Below, one piece after another: positions 1 to 7,194 of a stretch of 64,000 bases of DNA. The position numbers and the translations under genes are program-made. The DNA lies in the NCBI GenBank assembly GCA_913041125.1, contig CAJWHM010000002.1:1-64000 (forward strand), read 5' to 3'. The notes under the pieces were generated by a model. It was not told the DNA's origin. It searched no databases and was given only the letters and a program-made list of their open reading frames with translations. The DNA is from an uncultured Bacteroidota bacterium. GTDB taxonomy: Bacteria; Bacteroidota; Bacteroidia; Flavobacteriales; Flavobacteriaceae. Every line of letters starts with the position of its first letter. The stretch's first letter is position 1.

Positions 1-46
1 CCATTCTCTATATTTTAGTAACATTATTAATCATAAATCAATCAAA
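1..46 (+). promoter_or_regulatory. Array leader copy 1 (cut by window edge)
   Basis: First of six copies of a leader found before the genes of the 1-5.3 kb array. It holds a -7-like box TATTTTAG (11-18) and the shared 3' part TTAATCATAAATCAATCAAA running into the ATG at 47. The palindrome around the -7 box seen in other copies is degraded here (CTCTA left arm, TAGTA right). The -33 region lies outside the window. Confidence 0.6.
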
Positions 47-571
47 ATGAAAAAATTAATATTGATGTTACTTGTGTTTGCATCTTGTAGTCAAAAGCAT
101 GCTATTAGCAACCCTGCAAATGGATTTATTTCAGGGACCAAATCAAAAGTTACTATAGGATCCCAAGATGCGGTAGAGATTTTCAAAAAATTAGACAATG
201 CATGGGCTAAACTTGATTACGAATTAATTAAGACTTTTATTGCTGATGAAGCAACACTAAGTTTTCATGACGGATACGTAGCAAGAACACCTCAAGAATT
301 TGTAGATAAAATCAAATCAGAAGTTAAAAGAGTTGAATCAGAGGGAAATTCATATGAATGGACCACTGACTATGCTTTTGCACTATCAGCAACAGATGAT
401 GGGTCTCCTGATAACGATTTAGATAAAGGCGATTGGGTGAATGCTCAATTCACATCAAAAAGCACAAATCCAGATTCAAAAATTGATTCTGAAATTTTTT
501 ACGAATATTACCATATTGTTGATGGTAAAGTAGTTTCATGGAATTCATTCAGAAAGATTATTAATAAATGA
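47..571 (+). CDS. NTF2/SnoaL-like lipoprotein, array unit 1
   Basis: Predicted exported lipoprotein of 174 residues. The N-terminus is a short lipoprotein signal with lipobox VFASC (Cys14), so the mature protein should be membrane-anchored. The rest has the size and pattern of an NTF2-like (SnoaL/DUF4440) alpha+beta cone: an N-terminal helix (VEIFKKLDNAWAKLDYELIK) followed by a strand-rich half ending YYHIVDGKVVSWNSFRKI. Such folds bind small hydrophobic ligands or act as cyclases or isomerases, but no catalytic residues can be assigned. It is monocistronic: its own leader lies before it and a hairpin terminator follows at 594-619. Units at 3075 and 3830 are of the same general type but very divergent in sequence. 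Substrate and role unknown. Confidence 0.75.
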   Translation: MKKLILMLLVFASCSQKHAISNPANGFISGTKSKVTIGSQDAVEIFKKLDNAWAKLDYELIKTFIADEATLSFHDGYVARTPQEFVDKIKSEVKRVESEGNSYEWTTDYAFALSATDDGSPDNDLDKGDWVNAQFTSKSTNPDSKIDSEIFYEYYHIVDGKVVSWNSFRKIINK

Positions 572-593
572 CATCTAAGCATTATGTAAGTAT

Positions 594-619
594 AACCCTC
601 CCTAGTTGGAGGGTTTTTT
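594..619 (+). terminator. Array terminator 1
   Basis: Stem AACCCTCC/GGAGGGTT with a 6-nt loop followed by six T. It is the first of five near-identical terminators in the array and lies 23 bases after the stop of the gene ending at 571. Confidence 0.9.
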
Positions 620-719
620 CTTTTACACTAATGGACATAATCAAAATCCCCCTTGCATCCTATGTAAACCAGCTCTTTACTGAAGATTTCCTAACCCTAT
701 TTTAGGGGGTGTTTGTTTG
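620..719 (+). repeat. Post-terminator spacer repeat, copy A
   Basis: This spacer resembles 5191-5289. Both begin CTTTTACACYAATGGAYATA, share TGTAAA and GATTTC words at matching distances, and end with an identical 20-mer, TTTTAGGGGGTGTTTGTTTG. No ORF or RNA fold is obvious. The rest of the gene-free stretch 572-891 holds terminator 1 and the next leader. Confidence 0.7.
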
Positions 720-832
720 GGGTTTGTGTGGATACGTGTTGAAAAAATCTAAAACTTCTCAGGCATCTTTATCCCAAACACAGGGGCATGGGTTTTAGTA
801 AACAGTTTTTCTATTGTAACAGAGGTTTGCGA

Positions 833-891
833 TTTGATATGTAACCCTTTCTCTATATCTTAGAGGTATTATTAATCATAAATCAATTAAA
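833..891 (+). promoter_or_regulatory. Array leader copy 2 with complete promoter
   Basis: TTTG (833-836), a 19-bp spacer and TATCTTAG (856-863) fit the Bacteroidota -33/-7 pattern with one mismatch in the -7 box. The -7 box sits in an inverted repeat CTCTA-TATCT-TAGAG (851-865), which looks like an operator. The conserved stretch continues to the ATG at 892 and has no Shine-Dalgarno sequence. Confidence 0.75.
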
Positions 892-1623
892 ATGAAAAAT
901 TTATTAATAGCGATAGCTCTTTTGCTTTCAGTTTCTTTGACTGCTCAGGTGGCAGTATTTCATCCAGTTAAAATTCCCCAAAACCAAATAGAAAAATTTT
1001 TGGAAGTTGAAACTAATTATAGTCAGAAAGTCGCACAAGATGCAGTAAATAAAGGAAATTTAGTCTGGTGGGCATTAATGAAATCATTCAATACTACAGC
1101 TGATGATTACAATTTTATGTGGGTTAATGTTTATAAAGACATAGATGCAACAGTTGCTCCTTCATCAAACTGGTGGACAAATTCTGAAGATGTTGTAGGC
1201 GTAAAACCACAACTACTATATGATGGATGGAGTGGAGGCAAAGCTGACAGGAGATATTTTTATCAAATTAAACAACAAATTGACTCAGGTGAAGAAGGAA
1301 AGTTTGTGATTTTTAATTTTGCTTCACCAAAAAATATTGACAAAGTAATATCTGATAGCAAAAATTATGTTGCTCCTAGATTTAAAAAGGTTATGAAGTC
1401 AGCTGGAATGACCGGCTGGGGTTATGCTACAAAGATTACTCCTCAGGGTGAAAATTATGCTTCCTTTATGACTTACGATGCCTTTGATTCTATGACAAAT
1501 TTAATGAAACATTTATCTGGAGAGGGTGCAGCGATGAAATCACTAGATTTAGATAAACTTGAAAGAATTGATTGGGAGTCACGCTATGTTCTTGAAATTG
1601 TTTCTTCTACATCTTCAAACTAA
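892..1623 (+). CDS. Exported protein, putative duplicated alpha-beta barrel, array unit 2
   Basis: A 243-residue protein with a clear Sec signal peptide (LLIAIALLLSVSLTAQ, cleavage after about residue 19). The mature part looks like two tandem ferredoxin-like halves: VAVFHPVKIPQNQIEKFLEV opens the first and KFVIFNFASPKNIDKVISD the second. This is the pattern of dimeric alpha-beta barrel (ABM/NIPSNAP-like) proteins, a fold guess made from sequence pattern only. Many aromatic residues (NWWTN, LVWWALMKSF) could line a ligand pocket. Units at 2262 and 4463 have similar length, signal peptide and layout. Monocistronic, with its own leader and terminator. No enzymatic motif recognised. Confidence 0.7.
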   Translation: MKNLLIAIALLLSVSLTAQVAVFHPVKIPQNQIEKFLEVETNYSQKVAQDAVNKGNLVWWALMKSFNTTADDYNFMWVNVYKDIDATVAPSSNWWTNSEDVVGVKPQLLYDGWSGGKADRRYFYQIKQQIDSGEEGKFVIFNFASPKNIDKVISDSKNYVAPRFKKVMKSAGMTGWGYATKITPQGENYASFMTYDAFDSMTNLMKHLSGEGAAMKSLDLDKLERIDWESRYVLEIVSSTSSN

Positions 1624-1662
1624 TCAGAAATTATTAAAGATTTTGGATAAATATCCAAATGA

Positions 1663-1688
1663 AAACCCTCCCAAGTGGAGGGTTTTTT
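1663..1688 (+). terminator. Array terminator 2
   Basis: CCCTCC (1666-1671), loop CAAGT, GGAGGG (1677-1682), then six T. It follows the gene ending at 1623. Confidence 0.9.
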
Positions 1689-1693
1689 ATATA

Positions 1694-1734
1694 ATCGGCA
1701 TATCCACTTCATTAAGTAAAGTTGTTATTTGTAT
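1694..1734 (+). repeat. Direct repeat flanking the Cys-rich insert, left copy
   Basis: Starts ATCGGCATATCC and ends ATTTGTAT. The right copy is at 2189-2230 with the same 12-mer start and the same end. The two copies bracket the minus-strand cysteine-rich gene pair. Confidence 0.65.
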
Positions 1735-1745
1735 GCTGAAAGTAG

Positions 1746-2009
1746 TTAACAGCAACCACAGCTTTTTTGTGCAACATAGTCTTTAGCCTTTTTAATTTTG
1801 CAAGAATACATTGGGTATTTAGAAAGAAAGATTTCTCCTAACATAAGATTTGAAATATTATTATCAGCACCGAATTTGTTTCTTATGGTTGCTCCAAATT
1901 CTTCAACACTGTATATCTTATTTTTTAATCCCAATGGATTTTCTCTGCTTTCTTTCATAAAAAGATTTTTGTACAAAATATAAATACTAAAAATAACAAA
2001 TATTAACAA
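1746..2009 (-). CDS. Small membrane-anchored protein with C-terminal SCGCC
   Basis: 87 residues from a TTG start at 2009, or 70 residues from an ATG at 1958 (residue 18). I prefer the TTG start because it adds a hydrophobic N-terminal segment (LIFVIFSIYILY) that would be a membrane anchor, and because it overlaps the end of the cysteine-rich ORF at 2003-2092 by 7 bases, which suggests translational coupling. The C-terminus ends KSCGCC, with one further Cys in YSCKIKK, so metal or thiol chemistry is possible. No known domain recognised. It is antisense to the surrounding array genes and ends inside the spacer after terminator 2. Confidence 0.5.
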   Translation of the reverse strand: MLIFVIFSIYILYKNLFMKESRENPLGLKNKIYSVEEFGATIRNKFGADNNISNLMLGEIFLSKYPMYSCKIKKAKDYVAQKSCGCC

Positions 2010-2092
2010 TCACAAGGAGAACAAGAGCAAGGATCACAAATGCATGCCGAGCAATCTAATTCTTTACAAGGGGAACAGTCACAGTTACACAT
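2003..2092 (-). CDS. Cysteine-rich 29-residue peptide (metallothionein-like)
   Basis: An ATG at 2092 opens a 29-codon frame ending TAA at 2003-2005. Eleven of 29 residues are Cys (2, 4, 6, 9, 14, 17, 19, 22, 24, 27, 29), arranged as CxC, CxxC and CSPC/CDPC motifs with four Asp. That density is very unlikely in random AT-rich DNA. It resembles small metallothionein-type metal chelators in composition, but I cannot assign it to a known family. The stop overlaps the TTG start of the SCGCC membrane protein. The two genes are flanked by ~41-bp direct repeats, so they look like a module inserted into the array. Confidence 0.6.
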   Translation of the reverse strand: MCNCDCSPCKELDCSACICDPCSCSPCDC

Positions 2093-2188
2093 AATCGATT
2101 TTTATTAAAGTTACAAAAAAAACCCTTTAATAGTGGGTAAAAATATAAATCTAATGTGGTTTAAGTTTTTTTATTAGCCGATTATATC

Positions 2189-2230
2189 ATCGGCATATCC
2201 TTTTCAATAAGTTCAGAGTGTAATTTGTAT
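2189..2230 (+). repeat. Direct repeat flanking the Cys-rich insert, right copy
   Basis: Partner of 1694-1734. It lies directly before the shortened leader of the gene starting at 2262. Confidence 0.65.
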
Positions 2231-2235
2231 ATTGT

Positions 2236-2261
2236 TGAATATTAATCATAAATCAATTAAA
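2236..2261 (+). promoter_or_regulatory. Array leader copy 3 (3' half only)
   Basis: Only the start-proximal part of the leader (ATTAATCATAAATCAATTAA) is kept. The TATCTTAG box and its palindrome are missing and are replaced by the end of the 2189-2230 repeat. This unit may therefore use a different promoter from the other five. Confidence 0.55.
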
Positions 2262-2990
2262 ATGAAAAAAATATTTGCTTTCGTATTAACCTTATTTTTT
2301 GTTAGTTTTTCCTTTGGGCAAGATGCTAAAAAGAATGTCTATGAAGTAAGCTATTTGAAAGTTAAAACAGGATTTGATAAAGAATTTGAGTCTGCTGTCA
2401 GAAACCATATAAAATCATTCTACAAAGATGAAAATAAAGCATATTTAAGAAAAGTAACTCAAGGACATAGATCAGGGGAATACTTATGGATCAGTGGTCC
2501 TATGAAAATGAGCTTTATGGATCAAAAAAATAAAAAACGTGCAGATGACTGGGATAAGAATATCTTATCTAAAGCAGAATTAAAGGAGTCTAATCTCTAC
2601 AGGAACCATCCAGATTATAGTTCAATGTCAAAAAGTGAATCTGGTTCTGGGAAAGTTGTATTTGTAAGAGGATTTAAACAACAAAACTGGAAGACTACAT
2701 TTCATCTATTAAAAAGATTAAAAGATGTTTCTGATATGTCAGAAGGATGTAATCCATATAATGTAGTTACTCCAATAGCAAAATCTGAAGGTGAACCTGA
2801 TTTTTATATTGTAAGACATCTTTCTTCAATGGGAGAATTTGATGAAGATGATTTATTTGACAATAAGAATTGTAATGTTGGACAGATATTTCAAAACGAG
2901 ATGAGTAAAGAGGAACGAGAAGGTCTATTTCAAATGTGGGGTGACAACTTTGAAGTCATTTACAGTCAATTTAGAACTTTGGTAGAATAA
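2262..2990 (+). CDS. Exported protein, putative duplicated alpha-beta barrel, array unit 3
   Basis: 242 residues from the ATG at 2262. An in-frame TTG at 2232 would only translate the conserved leader, so it is not used. The Sec signal is KIFAFVLTLFFVSFSFGQ. The mature part again looks like two repeats, opening YEVSYLKVKTGFDKEFESAV and VVFVRGFKQQNWKTTFHLL. Two Cys (EGCNPY, NKNCNVG) lie in the second half and could pair in the periplasm. General layout matches the units at 892 and 4463; sequence identity looks low. Function unknown. Confidence 0.7.
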   Translation: MKKIFAFVLTLFFVSFSFGQDAKKNVYEVSYLKVKTGFDKEFESAVRNHIKSFYKDENKAYLRKVTQGHRSGEYLWISGPMKMSFMDQKNKKRADDWDKNILSKAELKESNLYRNHPDYSSMSKSESGSGKVVFVRGFKQQNWKTTFHLLKRLKDVSDMSEGCNPYNVVTPIAKSEGEPDFYIVRHLSSMGEFDEDDLFDNKNCNVGQIFQNEMSKEEREGLFQMWGDNFEVIYSQFRTLVE

Positions 2991-2995
2991 TATAA

Positions 2996-3019
2996 AACCC
3001 TCCCAAGTGGTTGGTTTTT
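2996..3019 (+). terminator. Array terminator 3, degenerate
   Basis: Same CCCTCC left arm and CAAGT loop as its siblings, but the right arm reads GGTTGG instead of GGAGGG, so two central pairs are lost. A five-T run follows. It may allow read-through into the gene at 3075. Confidence 0.6.
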
Positions 3020-3024
3020 CTTTT

Positions 3025-3074
3025 CAACCCATTCTCTATATCTTAGAGGTATTATTAATCATAAATCAATCAAA
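3025..3074 (+). promoter_or_regulatory. Array leader copy 4
   Basis: Full leader with CTCTA-TATCT-TAGAG (3034-3048), -7 box TATCTTAG (3039-3046) and the conserved start-proximal part. It begins right after the T-run of terminator 3, so the -33 position is T-rich and lacks TTTG. Confidence 0.65.
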
Positions 3075-3563
3075 ATGAAAAAAATATTATTTCTATTAAC
3101 AATCTCAATATTTTATGCGTGCAATGATTCAGTTATAATTGATCCAGCTGATATGTCAGGTACTATTTCCGCCTCTGATCAAAGAAATGCAATACAAAAC
3201 TCTTTTGTTGATGCGTACGAAAATAAAGATATAGAAGCAGCACTTTCAATATTTGCAGAGAATGCAGTATTTCACGTGAATGATGCTAAATTAACACCTG
3301 AAGAGGTAGTAGAAGCGTTTATGACAGGACATGAATATTTTGATGATATAAAAAATATTAATAGGAATACAACAACGATGTTTTACAACAACGGTGATAT
3401 TTACACTAACTATTGGTATACATGGAATGGTACTAACAAGAGAACTGGAGAACTATTGGCTTTAAGAGGTTACGCTTGGTTTAAATGGGATGGATTAAAG
3501 GTAATCGAAGCATACAACGCTTTTGATCCAACTGAATATAACAAAGCATTTGAACAACAATAA
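3075..3563 (+). CDS. NTF2/SnoaL-like lipoprotein, array unit 4
   Basis: 162 residues. Lipoprotein signal KKILFLLTISIFYAC with Cys16. The helix-rich start (IQNSFVDAYENKDIEAALSI) followed by FAENAVFHVND, YTNYWYTWNG and ALRGYAWFKWDGLKVIEAYN is the classic order of an NTF2-like (SnoaL) domain. The aromatic strand residues would form the pocket. It is the clearest NTF2-like member of the array. No array-type terminator follows: 3564-3770 has no clear hairpin. Ligand or reaction unknown. Confidence 0.75.
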   Translation: MKKILFLLTISIFYACNDSVIIDPADMSGTISASDQRNAIQNSFVDAYENKDIEAALSIFAENAVFHVNDAKLTPEEVVEAFMTGHEYFDDIKNINRNTTTMFYNNGDIYTNYWYTWNGTNKRTGELLALRGYAWFKWDGLKVIEAYNAFDPTEYNKAFEQQ

Positions 3564-3770
3564 TTATATAGTTAGAAATTACAAGAAAGTCATTTTTTTA
3601 ATAATGTTCGCTTAAGCTCGAAATGGTATTAAATTAAATGGGAATTTTTATTGAAATGGCTCAATAAAATTGGCTATAAAATCAAAACAGAATAGGGTTA
3701 ATATAATGATGTATTACCCTTTGCATTAGGTTTAGAAAGAGCTTTTTTATTGGAACTGGAGGTTGTGAGA

Positions 3771-3829
3771 TTTGATATGTAACCCATTCTCTATATCTTA
3801 GAGATATTATTAATCATAAATCAATTAAA
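3771..3829 (+). promoter_or_regulatory. Array leader copy 5 with complete promoter
   Basis: TTTG (3771-3774), 19-bp spacer, TATCTTAG (3794-3801) and the palindrome CTCTA-TATCT-TAGAG (3789-3803). Similarity to copy 2 extends ~60 bp further upstream (GCATTAGG/GCATGGG onward), so a longer unit was duplicated. Confidence 0.75.
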
Positions 3830-4363
3830 ATGAAAAAAATATTATTAGTATTAGTTTCCTCCTTTTTTCTTGGGTGTACTAGCACTACTGGGGTACAACT
3901 TAGTTTTGAAGATGATAAATCAAATGCCATTAGAGCACATTATCAAAACTATTTAAACAATGACATGGATGGACTTAAGTCTCTTTGGTCTCCAGATTTA
4001 AAGGTATATCTAAATAGTACTGAATCAATTTCACTTGAAGAGTTAGAAGTTTTATTACAGGCTCAACATGCCACATTCTCTCCTATCAAAATGTCTTGGG
4101 GATCAGAAGGGAAAACAGACGTAGGTCAATGGGTAGAAACAGCAAGTTATCCACCTGGTCCATCTAATGAAGCCCTTACTGTAACTCAAACTTGGTTTAA
4201 TTGGATAGCAACAAGCAAATTGACTGGAGAAACGATTAAAATGCCAGCGCATATAAGCTTTGTTTGGGGGGCTGATGGAAAAATTAGTGAAGAGTATCAT
4301 ATGTATGATACCAAAGAAATGATTGCAGCCATAGAGGCATCAGAAAAAGCTCGAAAAGAATAA
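3830..4363 (+). CDS. NTF2/SnoaL-like lipoprotein, array unit 5
   Basis: 177 residues. Lipobox FFLGC (Cys16). The mature part has the NTF2-like plan: AIRAHYQNYLNNDMDGLKSL helix, WSPDLKVYLNS strand, then TVTQTWFNWIAT and AHISFVWGADGKISEEYHMY. The carboxy end is charged (KEMIAAIEASEKARKE). Own leader and terminator, so it is a separate transcription unit. Function unknown; distant relative of the units at 47 and 3075. Confidence 0.75.
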   Translation: MKKILLVLVSSFFLGCTSTTGVQLSFEDDKSNAIRAHYQNYLNNDMDGLKSLWSPDLKVYLNSTESISLEELEVLLQAQHATFSPIKMSWGSEGKTDVGQWVETASYPPGPSNEALTVTQTWFNWIATSKLTGETIKMPAHISFVWGADGKISEEYHMYDTKEMIAAIEASEKARKE

Positions 4364-4383
4364 AATCTAAAATGTTACTTGAT

Positions 4384-4407
4384 TGCCCTCCCAAGCGGAG
4401 GGTTTTT
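4384..4407 (+). terminator. Array terminator 4
   Basis: CCCTCC (4386-4391), loop CAAGC, GGAGGG (4397-4402), then five T. It is followed at once by leader copy 6. Confidence 0.88.
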
Positions 4408-4412
4408 CTTTT

Positions 4413-4462
4413 CAACCCATTCTCTATATCTTAGAGGTATTATTAATCATAAATCAATTAAA
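4413..4462 (+). promoter_or_regulatory. Array leader copy 6
   Basis: Palindrome CTCTA-TATCT-TAGAG (4422-4436) with -7 box TATCTTAG (4427-4434). Apart from one base it is the same as copy 4 and, like it, abuts a terminator T-run and so lacks a TTTG at -33. Confidence 0.65.
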
Positions 4463-5146
4463 ATGAAAAAAATTATTTTATTATCGCTTCTTGTATCATT
4501 TATTTCTTTTGGGCAAACAAGATATTGGACATCATATAATTTTACTGTGGAACCACAAAATGAGGCAGCAGTCTATAAGCTTGTCGATGATTACTTTAAA
4601 TCAAATCCTACATCTGAAAATGTGAATGCATACTTGTATGAAAATCATTTTAAAGACAGTGGGAATAATTACAGTCATTCATTTATTTGGGCTGGAACTC
4701 TTGATGGTATGGGGAGTCAGTATGCTCCAAGACAAGATAAAGATTGGGAACTACTTTTAACAAAATTAACTCAACATATAGACGAATTTCACAGTGCAAC
4801 TATGGGAAACACAGTTGTTTACCAAGGGGATAACAAACCAATTCAAAGATATTTTTATTTAGATGTTGAAGATCAAACAAAATATTTGATGGCTTTTAAA
4901 AAATACTTAAAATTTCGACCTAAAGATCGCCAAGTATTACTTGGAGGTTTTTCTGCAGGTAGATCTCCAGATGGGGAAAGTCATTGGATAATTGTAGGGT
5001 TTGATGATATGAAATCTGCAATGGATCCTGGAGCTTACAGAAGAACAAATGCTCAAGCTCAAAAAGCCTGGGATGAATACAGAAAAAATAGAGGTGAAAC
5101 TCGTTTAGTAAGATCTGGCTTAAGAATTATGCTAGGAAGTTGGTAG
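4463..5146 (+). CDS. Exported protein, putative duplicated alpha-beta barrel, array unit 6
   Basis: 227 residues from the ATG at 4463. A longer in-frame opening from 4379 would read through terminator 4 and the leader, so it is rejected. Sec signal KKIILLSLLVSFISFGQ. The mature part shows two similar halves, TRYWTSYNFTVEPQNEAAVY and PIQRYFYLDVEDQTKYLMAF, the pattern seen at 892 and 2262. No Cys in the mature part and no catalytic motif recognised. Followed by terminator 5. Confidence 0.7.
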   Translation: MKKIILLSLLVSFISFGQTRYWTSYNFTVEPQNEAAVYKLVDDYFKSNPTSENVNAYLYENHFKDSGNNYSHSFIWAGTLDGMGSQYAPRQDKDWELLLTKLTQHIDEFHSATMGNTVVYQGDNKPIQRYFYLDVEDQTKYLMAFKKYLKFRPKDRQVLLGGFSAGRSPDGESHWIIVGFDDMKSAMDPGAYRRTNAQAQKAWDEYRKNRGETRLVRSGLRIMLGSW

Positions 5147-5165
5147 AAAATTAAGCTTATTGATG

Positions 5166-5190
5166 TACCCTCCCAAGTGGAGGGTTTTTT
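5166..5190 (+). terminator. Array terminator 5
   Basis: CCCTCC (5168-5173), loop CAAGT, GGAGGG (5179-5184), then six T. Confidence 0.9.
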
Positions 5191-5289
5191 CTTTTACACC
5201 AATGGATATAATCCAAAATCAATCTTTCTGTCTGTAAATGAGGTACTTGCTAGAGATTTCTTGATGCTGTTTTAGGGGGTGTTTGTTTG
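5191..5289 (+). repeat. Post-terminator spacer repeat, copy B
   Basis: Partner of 620-719. It ends with the same 20-mer TTTTAGGGGGTGTTTGTTTG and marks the right end of the array. Confidence 0.7.
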
Positions 5290-5341
5290 TCTTCTTTTGA
5301 TTTTATCCTGTATGAAAATGAAGGCATATGTAAATATATTT

Positions 5342-5601
5342 TTGGCAACATATTGGCAACAAATTGTACAATTTTATGCCATTTTATGAAATAAATTACA
5401 ATAATAGAATCATCTTAAATTGCCTTTAAAGTATTGTAAATAGTGAGTTTTATAATTAAATGCGGTAAGTTCGATAAAATATCTGTTTGCATAGGATTTA
5501 CTTCCGCTCCGAGTACTCAGAGAATCTGTAACTAATTGTTTTACATAAAGTTGCGGATTTTTTTTGGTTGACAAAATATCTTTCTTTAAAAGAATTACAA
5601 A
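5342..5601. other. Gene-free stretch with TTGGCAACA direct repeats and a 63-codon open frame
   Basis: TTGGCAACA occurs twice, at 5342-5350 and 5353-5361 (11-bp period). On the minus strand the frame directly after the stop of the SIS gene (5602-5604) stays open for 63 codons to a TGA at 5410-5412, without an ATG. Its reading (for example DSLSTRSGSKSYANRY) looks like protein but I recognise no family. It may be the remnant of a gene or of an integrated element. Confidence 0.35.
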
Positions 5602-6318
5602 TTAAAGATGTTTTATCCTTTTTTCATATTTTTTGTATAAGCTTTCGTTATCAAAACCATCAATATTCTGACTGAAATATATTGGCAATTTTATACCTTG
5701 ATTGTATGCTTTTTTAATTGATTCAGAAGCAATTAAATTTACAATAAAGCAACCCCCAATTGTTGAAGCAGCGCCAGTTAAATCATTACCTATATTTAAT
5801 AATCCGTCACCTGGTGGTACACAATTATCAATTACAAGATCTGCTATTTCATAAAGTTTTTTTTGTCCTTCAATTCGAGTTGGATATTTCTTTGATTGTT
5901 CTATTGAAGTTATAGCAATCACTTTATTTCCATTTTTCTTTGCAAGCTGAGCCATTTCAATTGGAAGAGCATTACGTCCTGAATTTGATATTACTATAAA
6001 CATATCTTTTTTTGAAATTTTGTGTTGATCCCAAATTATTTCTGCTAGTCCACTTACCCTTTCTATACTACCACTTCTTCTGGCACCCTCAGAAGTCATT
6101 ACAATTGAATCTAACATAGCATTAATATTTCCAAGCCCTCCAGCTCTAACAAATAGTTCAAGTCCTATCATATGAGAGTGACCGGTTCCGAATGTGTGGA
6201 TTAGGTTATCATTAATAATAGCATCAGTAAAACATTTGATTACTTTTGGAAGAATATTGTTATTTGTTCTAATTATTTTATCAAAGAGTTCTTTTGATGC
6301 TATATGATAATCGTACAT
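5602..6318 (-). CDS. SIS-domain phosphosugar-binding protein (UPF0309-like)
   Basis: 238 residues, cytoplasmic. A sugar isomerase (SIS) domain covers nearly the whole protein. Signatures are the first nucleotide-fold strand with HTFGTGHSHMIGLELFVRAG, the phosphosugar-binding loop VISNSGRNALPIEMA, and KVIAITS. Length and motifs fit the UPF0309/YckB-like single-SIS family, which binds phosphorylated amino sugars; a defined reaction is not known for that family. It ends with a TAA immediately followed by an open but start-less frame. It is divergent to the DUF1080 lipoprotein at 6427 with ~108 bp between. Likely part of local sugar metabolism. Confidence 0.85.
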   Translation of the reverse strand: MYDYHIASKELFDKIIRTNNNILPKVIKCFTDAIINDNLIHTFGTGHSHMIGLELFVRAGGLGNINAMLDSIVMTSEGARRSGSIERVSGLAEIIWDQHKISKKDMFIVISNSGRNALPIEMAQLAKKNGNKVIAITSIEQSKKYPTRIEGQKKLYEIADLVIDNCVPPGDGLLNIGNDLTGAASTIGGCFIVNLIASESIKKAYNQGIKLPIYFSQNIDGFDNESLYKKYEKRIKHL

Positions 6319-6426
6319 ATTAAAATTTTAGATAAATTTAAAAAAGCTTTTAATTGTAAAAAGAAAAAATTTTTATCTCTTTCAATAAAATGATATGGTT
6401 GATTTAAATAAAATTTAATTAAGAAA

Positions 6427-7194
6427 ATGCGAAAATTAATTGTCTTTTTTTTACTAGTCTCATGTAAAACACCAGAAAAGGAATGGGTATCATTAATAAA
6501 AAATAATTCTCTTGATGGCTGGCACATTTTCCAAGACAATGGGCAAAAAAGTGGATGGCGAGTTGAAAACGATATATTGATTTTTGATAAAATTTCTGGC
6601 TTAGAGTCAGGGGAAGATGACTCAAGTTTATTATCTGACAAGTCTTATAGCAGTTTTGAAATCTCTTTTGAGTGGAAAATTGAAGAAGGAGGTAATAGTG
6701 GATTTATGTGGAATGTATCAGAAGATTCAATTTATAAATATCCATATCAAACTGGACCAGAAATTCAAATTATTGATCCATCGGTATATTCTCAGCCAGA
6801 GGACGTATTAGGAGGTTCTATCGAGCTAAATAATGTTTTGGTAGATTTAGAAGAAAAAAAACATTACCTAGGAGCTGTTTATGATCTATTTTCACCCAAA
6901 GATAAATTTGAATTTAATCCAGTTGGAGAATGGAATCACTATGAAATTAAAATTGATCAAAAAAACAATCAGGGATTGTTAAAATTAAATGGAATTAAGA
7001 TAAATGAATTTCCATTGCGAGGACCAAAATGGGATGCTTCACTTGCTAAAAGTAAATTTAATTATTCGGATGAATATCCTTATTTAGGAGAGAGAAGATG
7101 GCATGATTTTGCAAAATTTTCAAGTGGTTCTATTTGTCTCCAGGATCATCCTGGAAAAGCATACTTTAGAAAAATTTTCATAAGAGAGCTTTAA
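6427..7194 (+). CDS. DUF1080 (3-keto-disaccharide hydrolase-like) lipoprotein
   Basis: 255 residues. Lipobox LLVSC (Cys13). The mature protein is one DUF1080 / 3-keto-glycoside hydrolase domain with a concanavalin-like jelly-roll fold. Typical features are SLDGWHIFQDNG, WRVENDILIF, ISFEWKIEEGGNSGFMWNV, GPEIQIID and the C-terminal GSICLQDHPGKAYFRKIFIREL. Members hydrolyse 3-keto-glycosides or bind glycans. The surface lipoprotein form fits polysaccharide breakdown and agrees with neighbouring sugar genes. Substrate unknown. Confidence 0.85.
   Translation: MRKLIVFFLLVSCKTPEKEWVSLIKNNSLDGWHIFQDNGQKSGWRVENDILIFDKISGLESGEDDSSLLSDKSYSSFEISFEWKIEEGGNSGFMWNVSEDSIYKYPYQTGPEIQIIDPSVYSQPEDVLGGSIELNNVLVDLEEKKHYLGAVYDLFSPKDKFEFNPVGEWNHYEIKIDQKNNQGLLKLNGIKINEFPLRGPKWDASLAKSKFNYSDEYPYLGERRWHDFAKFSSGSICLQDHPGKAYFRKIFIREL

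Follow-up and report, generated by a model that had tools for sequence, protein, structure and literature searches.

The stretch of DNA analysed here (the window) comprises the first 64,000 nucleotides of contig CAJWHM010000002.1, from an uncultured bacterium of the family Flavobacteriaceae, and its first 5,289 nucleotides carry six consecutive plus-strand genes, each preceded by a copy of one short leader. With a probability of roughly three in four, we consider this region a stretch of an integron-like cassette array built by a tyrosine recombinase, with another enzyme and another kind of site than those of integrons. Read along its gene, a unit consists of a short promoter core and the 25-nt leader, then a single gene that mostly encodes an exported protein, in many cases a terminator, and a 29-bp site. 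These 29 bp also form the final codons of an integrase gene that heads arrays in sister species, where the array genes point at the integrase. This integrase most likely recombines the 29-bp sites as double-stranded DNA, and cassettes could be inserted behind its 3' end, excised or passed on; since every cassette would arrive with a copy of these 29 bp, the reading frame of the integrase would not be broken. Promoters are swapped as well, the breaks falling at the leader; the most likely route is homologous recombination or conversion between the conserved blocks on either side of a promoter.

As read from genome comparison, the sites, the layout of the arrays, the boundaries of the units, their presence in several species and the swapping of promoters are established. 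Two copies of the 29-bp site were found in the window, both on the minus strand (1691-1719, which has the integrase 3'-end sequence, and 2186-2214), and none in 100 shuffled versions. A 26-mer of the site, searched with up to three mismatches, was present in 31/38 genomes of the genus (control: none in any of the 38). In the other genera of the family, the site was found in 4/119 genomes. The conserved block, judged from 103 array sites, extends from about -5 to +32, and six integrase-linked sites share it. Carriage by phages was considered and set aside, as no copy of the 29-mer was obtained from viral contigs in a search limited to exact matches, which did not cover collections of phage and plasmid records.

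When sites were paired across genomes, every one of the 61 pairs with a homologous flank was one-sided (36 left only, 25 right only, none both), six of the 36 left-only pairs being integrase against integrase. With a wider locus set, 105/106 pairs were one-sided and one shared both flanks, and using each site once gave 43/43 one-sided pairs. As a control, 549 ordinary gene ends in these loci were treated alike, and 36/151 pairs shared both flanks and 115/151 only one. For pairs with a flank of at least 80%, both flanks were shared in 1/64 at sites versus 21/55 at ordinary gene ends. The Fisher value for sites against gene ends, 3e-8, is only a guide, because the pairs are not independent. Some of the compared genomes may equal other records (G018 is probably AG-920-B11 and was treated so), which carries a risk of false pairs sharing both flanks, not of one-sided ones. 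The units delimited by two sites (n = 108) had a median length of 897 bp, and in 96 of the 104 with a frame of at least 60 aa this frame runs against the direction of the integrase. The single-cell genome AG-404-F06 contains ten consecutive units, nine of them with a single predicted gene. Moreover, for nine whole units a counterpart of 74-98% identity was found in another genome, bounded by sites on either side. That the site is the junction, and that the moving unit with its boundaries appears in this way, is well supported by these alignments.

One of the nine recurring units belongs to this window. It occupies 1720-2185 on the minus strand, between genes 2 and 3, and had been overlooked, together with its two sites, by the first-pass annotation. 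This complete unit is 90.4% identical over 448 of 458/460 bases to a unit of the single cell AG-892-D16; the likeness ends at both 29-bp sites, and outside them the two genomes are unlike. It contains two minus-strand open reading frames, one at 1746-2009 (87 aa from TTG, 70 aa from ATG, ending in KSCGCC) and one at 2003-2092, which encodes a 29-aa peptide with 13 cysteines, MCNCDCSPCKELDCSACICDPCSCSPCDC. The latter is metallothionein-like in look, and its frame is kept in the aligned AG-892-D16 copy.

The array spacers, read on the opposite strand, contain frames ending in ..PELNEEDMPMI*, with 74 matches at up to two changes, a number that includes double counts from overlapping loci. In one genome (G007) such a spacer frame extends back into the C-terminus of a tyrosine recombinase, ending ..FRHSGAIDIFKRTGSITKLQKAMGHSSINVSLTYLRGLEIPELTENDMPVV*. 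AG-901-E05 carries an intact 357-aa integrase gene whose 3' end is the 29 bp GAACTTAATGAAGAGGATATGCCGATGAT; directly next to it lies a convergent gene, followed by a 29-bp copy with two changes, and so on. This succession of an integrase, one or two convergent genes and a further site was seen in the four loci of the genus with sequence past the integrase 3' end (L207, L208 and L210, full-length, and L212, frameshifted). The integrase belongs to PF00589 (E 1e-10 to 7e-13 in three copies), and its R, R, H, Y pattern, which we take to be the catalytic residues, is kept in six aligned copies. A search of the genus with one full copy gave any trace in 15/38 genomes and a full-length gene in 5/38, the query's own included. 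Five integrases of the genus, whose amino-acid identity is 0.49 over all but the last 20 codons, were compared at the third base of identical codons: identity was 84/88 (95%) in the last ten codons, 214/325 in codons -60 to -21, and 828/1592 (52%) in all but the last 20. These values point to constraint on the DNA of the site, where it overlies integrase codons, even at silent positions. The role of this integrase, the circular intermediates and the direction in which an array would grow are proposed from this arrangement. The first-pass annotation had stated that no mobile-element gene is present; this held for whole genes in the window, but the spacers do carry copies of the 3' end of the integrase gene.

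A second integrase subfamily (..LSTENLDEAMLKAFGD*) also heads arrays (L222:354-1509 and L138:3856-4723), with the 29-bp site just past its end. At two further loci (L224:1883-6488 and L220:2222-4094), an integrase or a remnant of one adjoins the 3' end of a presumably mnmE-like gene, and in L224 sites lie beside it.

Other joints in the window are of a different kind, which we call type A. Behind gene 1 lies a long type-A spacer (614-845, plus strand), and the minus strand of 752-847 reads ..KTHAPVFGIKMPEKF*, similar to an integrase frame near its stop codon. At the right end of the array, half of such a spacer is present (5185-5289, plus strand; repeat families D12 and D13), and at short type-A joints the terminator runs straight into promoter A. 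The long joints hold a block that reads ..FGIKMPEKF* on the opposite strand and that also occurs directly after tmRNA, tRNA-Asp and tRNA-Ser genes. In contig C1 of the window's own genome a type-A array begins just downstream of the tmRNA gene (L012:3426-4058), and in sister genomes the block follows the tRNA-Asp (L213) and tRNA-Ser (L214) genes. Type-A joints may be an older or a sister version of the same system.

The leader TATTAATCATAAATCAATYAAAATG ends at the ATG of each gene and was found on the plus strand at 25-49 (one mismatch), 870-894 (no mismatch), 2240-2264, 3053-3077, 3808-3832 and 4441-4465. These six matches, at up to three mismatches in 64 kb, against none in 100 shuffles, agree with the first-pass claim of six plus-strand genes sharing one leader. 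More units had been expected beyond the window, and the 1.7-Mb genome indeed contains 31 leader matches at the same threshold (control 4), many of them clustered; the leader does not, then, stand before most genes, and this count ruled it out as an ordinary genome-wide promoter. At up to two mismatches, the leader was present in 25/25 sampled genomes of the genus, with 1-27 copies each (the reversed pattern gave one match in one genome), mostly before genes for exported proteins; in related genomes, too, it adjoins other such genes. Outside the genus, 2/15 other genomes of the order had one copy each. Scanning a species collection for an exact 28-mer of the leader returned 62 stretches, with titles mostly of Flavobacteriaceae, Flavobacteria or Bacteroidetes, several with sea-sample names, one Polaribacter and one Saprospiraceae. 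Leader frames of at least 60 aa start hydrophobic, like exported or membrane proteins, in 107/112 cases in the fetched arrays and 110/121 in the scan loci, two sets that overlap and from which one chance match inside a YebC-like frame (L019) was left out.

Since the leader was found behind at least four promoter groups, it is an element of the 5' untranslated region and not part of one promoter. Promoter A had 12 matches in the window's own genome (control 0), 12/12 directly before leader matches. In the window it precedes gene 2 (846-869), gene 4 (3029-3052, short type-A joint), gene 5 (3784-3807) and gene 6 (4417-4440, short type-A joint), all on the plus strand, and the promoter B core AATTTGTATATTG (2215-2239, plus strand) lies between the 29-bp site and the third leader. 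Among 50 units with a leader near the site, the distance between the two was 26-31 nt in 30 (29 nt in 19) and 45-57 nt in 20, so that promoter B sits in a nearly fixed gap; site and leader blocks could in this way serve the exchange of promoter B. At the other end of the gene, the stop codon touches the next site in 9/48 units.

Terminators of the form CCCTCC..GGAGGG were confirmed behind five genes, as annotated at first: on the plus strand after gene 1 (596-613), gene 2 (1666-1682), gene 3 (2998-3014, degenerate, CCCTCC..GGTTGG), gene 5 (4386-4402) and gene 6 (5168-5184). With the T-run and up to three mismatches, the own genome has 15 matches at 13 places (control 0). Contig ends of this genome often fall in the repeats: 8/15 lie inside a leader or site (C1, C2, C16, C25, C27, C28, C35, C42) and a ninth in a terminator alone, in a sample that is not a fair one because most of these contigs had been fetched for a leader match. 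Arrays are therefore probably under-counted in such draft genomes.

Promoters were found to part from their genes. The likeness of gene 2 to its homolog in AAA795-G10 (82%) covers the stretch between -23 and the stop codon; gene 2 has promoter A and the homolog promoter B. Similarly, one gene that is 97-98% identical in AG-404-F06, AG-920-B11 and AAA795-G10 has promoters B, D and A, respectively. With strict, merged promoter groups, which leave 61/214 leader genes unclassed, 19 of the 30 gene families classed in at least two genomes have at least two groups; looser first classes (25/44 families with at least two) were set aside as too loose on checking. For leader-gene pairs with at least 80% identity of the coding sequence (CDS), the upstream neighbour was kept in 6/46 and the downstream one in 4/43, compared with 7/43 and 18/45 for other genes, so that the contrast is on the downstream side. 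Counter-examples that keep the promoter and both neighbours are PBHD/CACEKG, CACMHY/CAJWUI and CACMHY/QFDA. Promoters with identity at background level, by itself a weak test of swapping (random-pair background 0.58), were seen in leader versus ordinary genes in 18/21 versus 6/16 pairs at 80-88% CDS identity, 10/18 versus 5/14 at 88-95% and 6/16 versus 0/8 at 95-100%; identical proteins of one genome under two labels were left out. Flank tests gave 395 pairs alike upstream only, 196 downstream only and 12 on both sides at leader junctions, and 36, 118 and 1 at type-A terminators, numbers whose interpretation is difficult, the long spacer being a repeat in its own right. The best supported joining site is the 29-bp site upstream of the leader, not the leader, although promoter swaps do break at the latter. 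In one genome, two unlike neighbouring genes (L097:565 and 1193) have an identical 75-nt upstream sequence, which may be taken as a sign of recent promoter copying. The proposal in the first-pass annotation of a cassette-type array held together by shared flanks fits these comparisons well: in other species, units that are 74-98% identical have other neighbours and often other promoters.

Several observations weigh against a cassette array built by this integrase. Recombination at the sites is read from genome comparison, none having been observed. The window has only two 29-bp joints; its joints are mostly of type A, without the 29-bp site, for which the cassette model does not account, and the type-A spacer peptide occurs in 26/38 genomes with no frame bearing it longer than 134 aa. 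The one unit bounded by two sites (1720-2185) is among the 8/104 whose frame runs in the opposite direction. Of this integrase, the own assembly (79% complete) contains only a 33-aa remnant; it also has three recombinases of about 300 aa. Other integrases adjoin sites, namely one of 372 aa in G007 (L222), an interrupted relative of that one in G021 (L138) and one of 402 aa in G051 (L224), so that the acting enzyme may be another. A homologous integrase in another family of the order (G034) has neither site nor leader in the 7 kb listed around it. Finally, at 70-80% CDS identity, background-level promoters were equally frequent in leader genes (22/36) and ordinary genes (20/32), and the parting of promoters from genes at the leader is not a consequence of recombination at the 29-bp site.

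Some of these points would suit homologous recombination alone, in which terminator, site, promoter and leader serve as repeats for RecA-type exchange, for instance after DNA uptake, and integrase remnants are passengers. We regard this as unlikely, though it is the best of the alternatives. It would account for promoter swaps that break at the leader and not at the site, for type-A joints lacking the 29 bp, and for a site that is found in 31/38 genomes when a full-length integrase is found in 5/38. It does not lead one to expect that the site coincides with the 3' end of the integrase gene and is conserved there even at silent positions, that the gene has one direction relative to the site in 96/104 units, or that whole units end at sites. 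A marine version of the rAID arrays, with cassettes as orphan immunity proteins against competitor toxins, seems less probable still. The plan is the same (tyrosine recombinase, short co-oriented genes and an intergenic motif, as outlined in PMC12247911), and the cargo is mostly exported: a hydrophobic N-terminus was found in 73/101 cassette frames versus 26/94 control frames, in a home-made test with cassette frames of at least 60 aa and control frames of at least 100 aa. However, among 87 dissimilar cassette proteins PADLOC gave no match, and none of the best 25 of 34 matched Pfam families is an immunity family; esterases, beta-lactamase-fold proteins and SnoaL were found instead, an argument that is weak because most of the 87 proteins match nothing. 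Ordinary tandem duplication, with control regions kept alike by selection as one regulon, is very improbable. In its favour, the SnoaL-like and the doubled ferredoxin-like fold each occur more than once, gene 5 is a relative of gene 4, and the constancy of the leader across at least four promoter groups would fit a signal for translation or for a regulon. Against it, 14/15 pairs of mature proteins in the window show no sequence relationship, the cargo includes hydrolases, a cupin and membrane proteins, and near-identical genes have different promoters and neighbours in other species; as sole cause, plain duplication was ruled out by the one-sided site flanks, the site-bounded units and the dissimilarity of the proteins.

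Among known systems, the cassette array shares with integrons a tyrosine recombinase at its head, tandem, mostly one-gene cassettes and a recombination site for each, and arrays without a nearby integrase resemble the CALINs of integrons (both as outlined in PMC8618304). Mostly one-gene cassettes, each with a site, were found here beside an integrase and its own site; an IntI-type integrase and a folded attC were not. In contrast to integrons, the integrase scores far below the cut-off of the integron-integrase profile TIGR02249 (28.3 bits in L208 and 25.3 bits in L211, cut-off 265; L167 not listed), the genes point at the integrase, the units carry promoters, and the site is 29 bp long and lies inside the last codons of the integrase gene. 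Folding of 5/7 site regions was no better than that of shuffles (z -0.94 to +1.16), and the other two (z -3.09 and -2.96) have local hairpins unlike each other. An integron proper was ruled out by the family score and the lack of a folded attC. By the features tested, then, the array is not an integron, and its layout comes closest to those of rAID arrays and dif modules.

The rAID arrays of gut Bacteroidales belong to the same phylum and, in the outline given in PMC12247911, likewise combine a tyrosine recombinase, a row of short co-oriented genes and a conserved intergenic motif; their biogenesis is described there as an area of active research. Here, a tyrosine recombinase (PF00589) stands beside the array in L207, L208, L210 and L212, and the short genes are co-oriented in 96/104 units with site and leader motifs. 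Unlike the orphan immunity genes of rAID arrays, which lie downstream of the recombinase, those described here are convergent with it and encode exported, enzyme- or binder-like proteins. The 29-bp site looks unlike dif, as far as we can judge. The dif (pdif) modules of Acinetobacter are similar in that genes flanked by short recombinase sites move between replicons (in the outlines of PMC6449649 and PMC13141974), but they use the host XerCD and dif-like sites, mainly on plasmids, and not a dedicated integrase. Tycheposons of marine and freshwater plankton, as sketched in PMC10872708, also combine a tyrosine recombinase with a tRNA border, and in L209, L210 and L211 a predicted tRNA gene lies a short way upstream of the integrase; yet tycheposons are single cargo elements of 4-200 kb, whereas here short units (median 897 bp) follow one another, each with a site behind it, and no single large tRNA-bounded element was found. 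The literature searched, which left most subscription journals outside, gave no description of such arrays in marine flavobacteria.

The six genes of the window all lie on the plus strand. Gene 1 (47-571) is lipoprotein-like, with a likeness to DUF4440 below the cut-off only, and has a counterpart in an array of AG-325-O11 (L091_7359). Genes 2 (892-1623) and 6 (4463-5146) encode secreted proteins with a doubled ferredoxin-like fold, and gene 3 (2262-2990) a secreted protein of 242 aa without any family match over the cut-off. Gene 4 (3075-3563) codes for a SnoaL-like lipoprotein (Pfam SnoaL_2, 1.2e-6, 29.4 bits, cut-off 27) and gene 5 (3830-4363) for a related lipoprotein with SnoaL_2 below the cut-off. 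AlphaFold2 models of genes 2 and 6, with a predicted local distance difference test (pLDDT) of 89.4 and 83.2, have a doubled beta-alpha-beta-beta-alpha fold, and their best PDB match was 2pgc, a marine-metagenome protein (Foldseek 4.3e-13 and 7.6e-8; template-modelling score to target 0.77 and 0.67, respectively), followed by monooxygenase-like and heme-binding barrels. Across the 87 dissimilar cassette proteins, the top Pfam families were beta-lactamase fold, esterase and metallo-beta-lactamase, with three members each (best 25 of 34 families).

It had been claimed at first that these proteins are unlike each other and that the control sequences are conserved best. The former stands for 14/15 pairs of mature proteins, which score about like shuffles (z -1.0 to 1.6), but not for genes 4 and 5, the sole pair related past the signal peptide (z 17.6). 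The latter is borne out by the alignment of the six genes, in which mean pairwise DNA identity was 0.94 for the leader, 0.69 for the first 60 nt of the gene and 0.55 for the coding remainder past the signal peptide; the promoter region of genes 2-6 gave 0.68. No known RNA family reached the gathering score in positions 1-6500. Past the last terminator, the region 5330-5560 contains repeated TTGGCAACA words and is followed by the first ordinary gene; it may be a former border of the island.

Among the ways in which bacteria collect single genes, integrons are the best known. In marine flavobacteria, an unlike enzyme and site appear to do the integron's job, with cargo for the cell surface and the outside. 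At somewhat less than even odds, this would be a further cassette platform beside integrons and dif modules, with a double-stranded docking site in the last codons of the integrase, a genus-wide pool of exported one-gene cassettes and promoters exchanged separately between two conserved blocks, and the gut rAID arrays may share its mechanism with other cargo. The 29-bp site provides a handle to find and delimit cassettes and predicts where they insert, and through it the origin of recombinase-associated arrays in Bacteroidota becomes testable. Such arrays may also be one reason for the fragmented assemblies of these genomes and, if the reading as a cassette array is true, would explain how genes for surface proteins are traded within a group of uncultured ocean bacteria.

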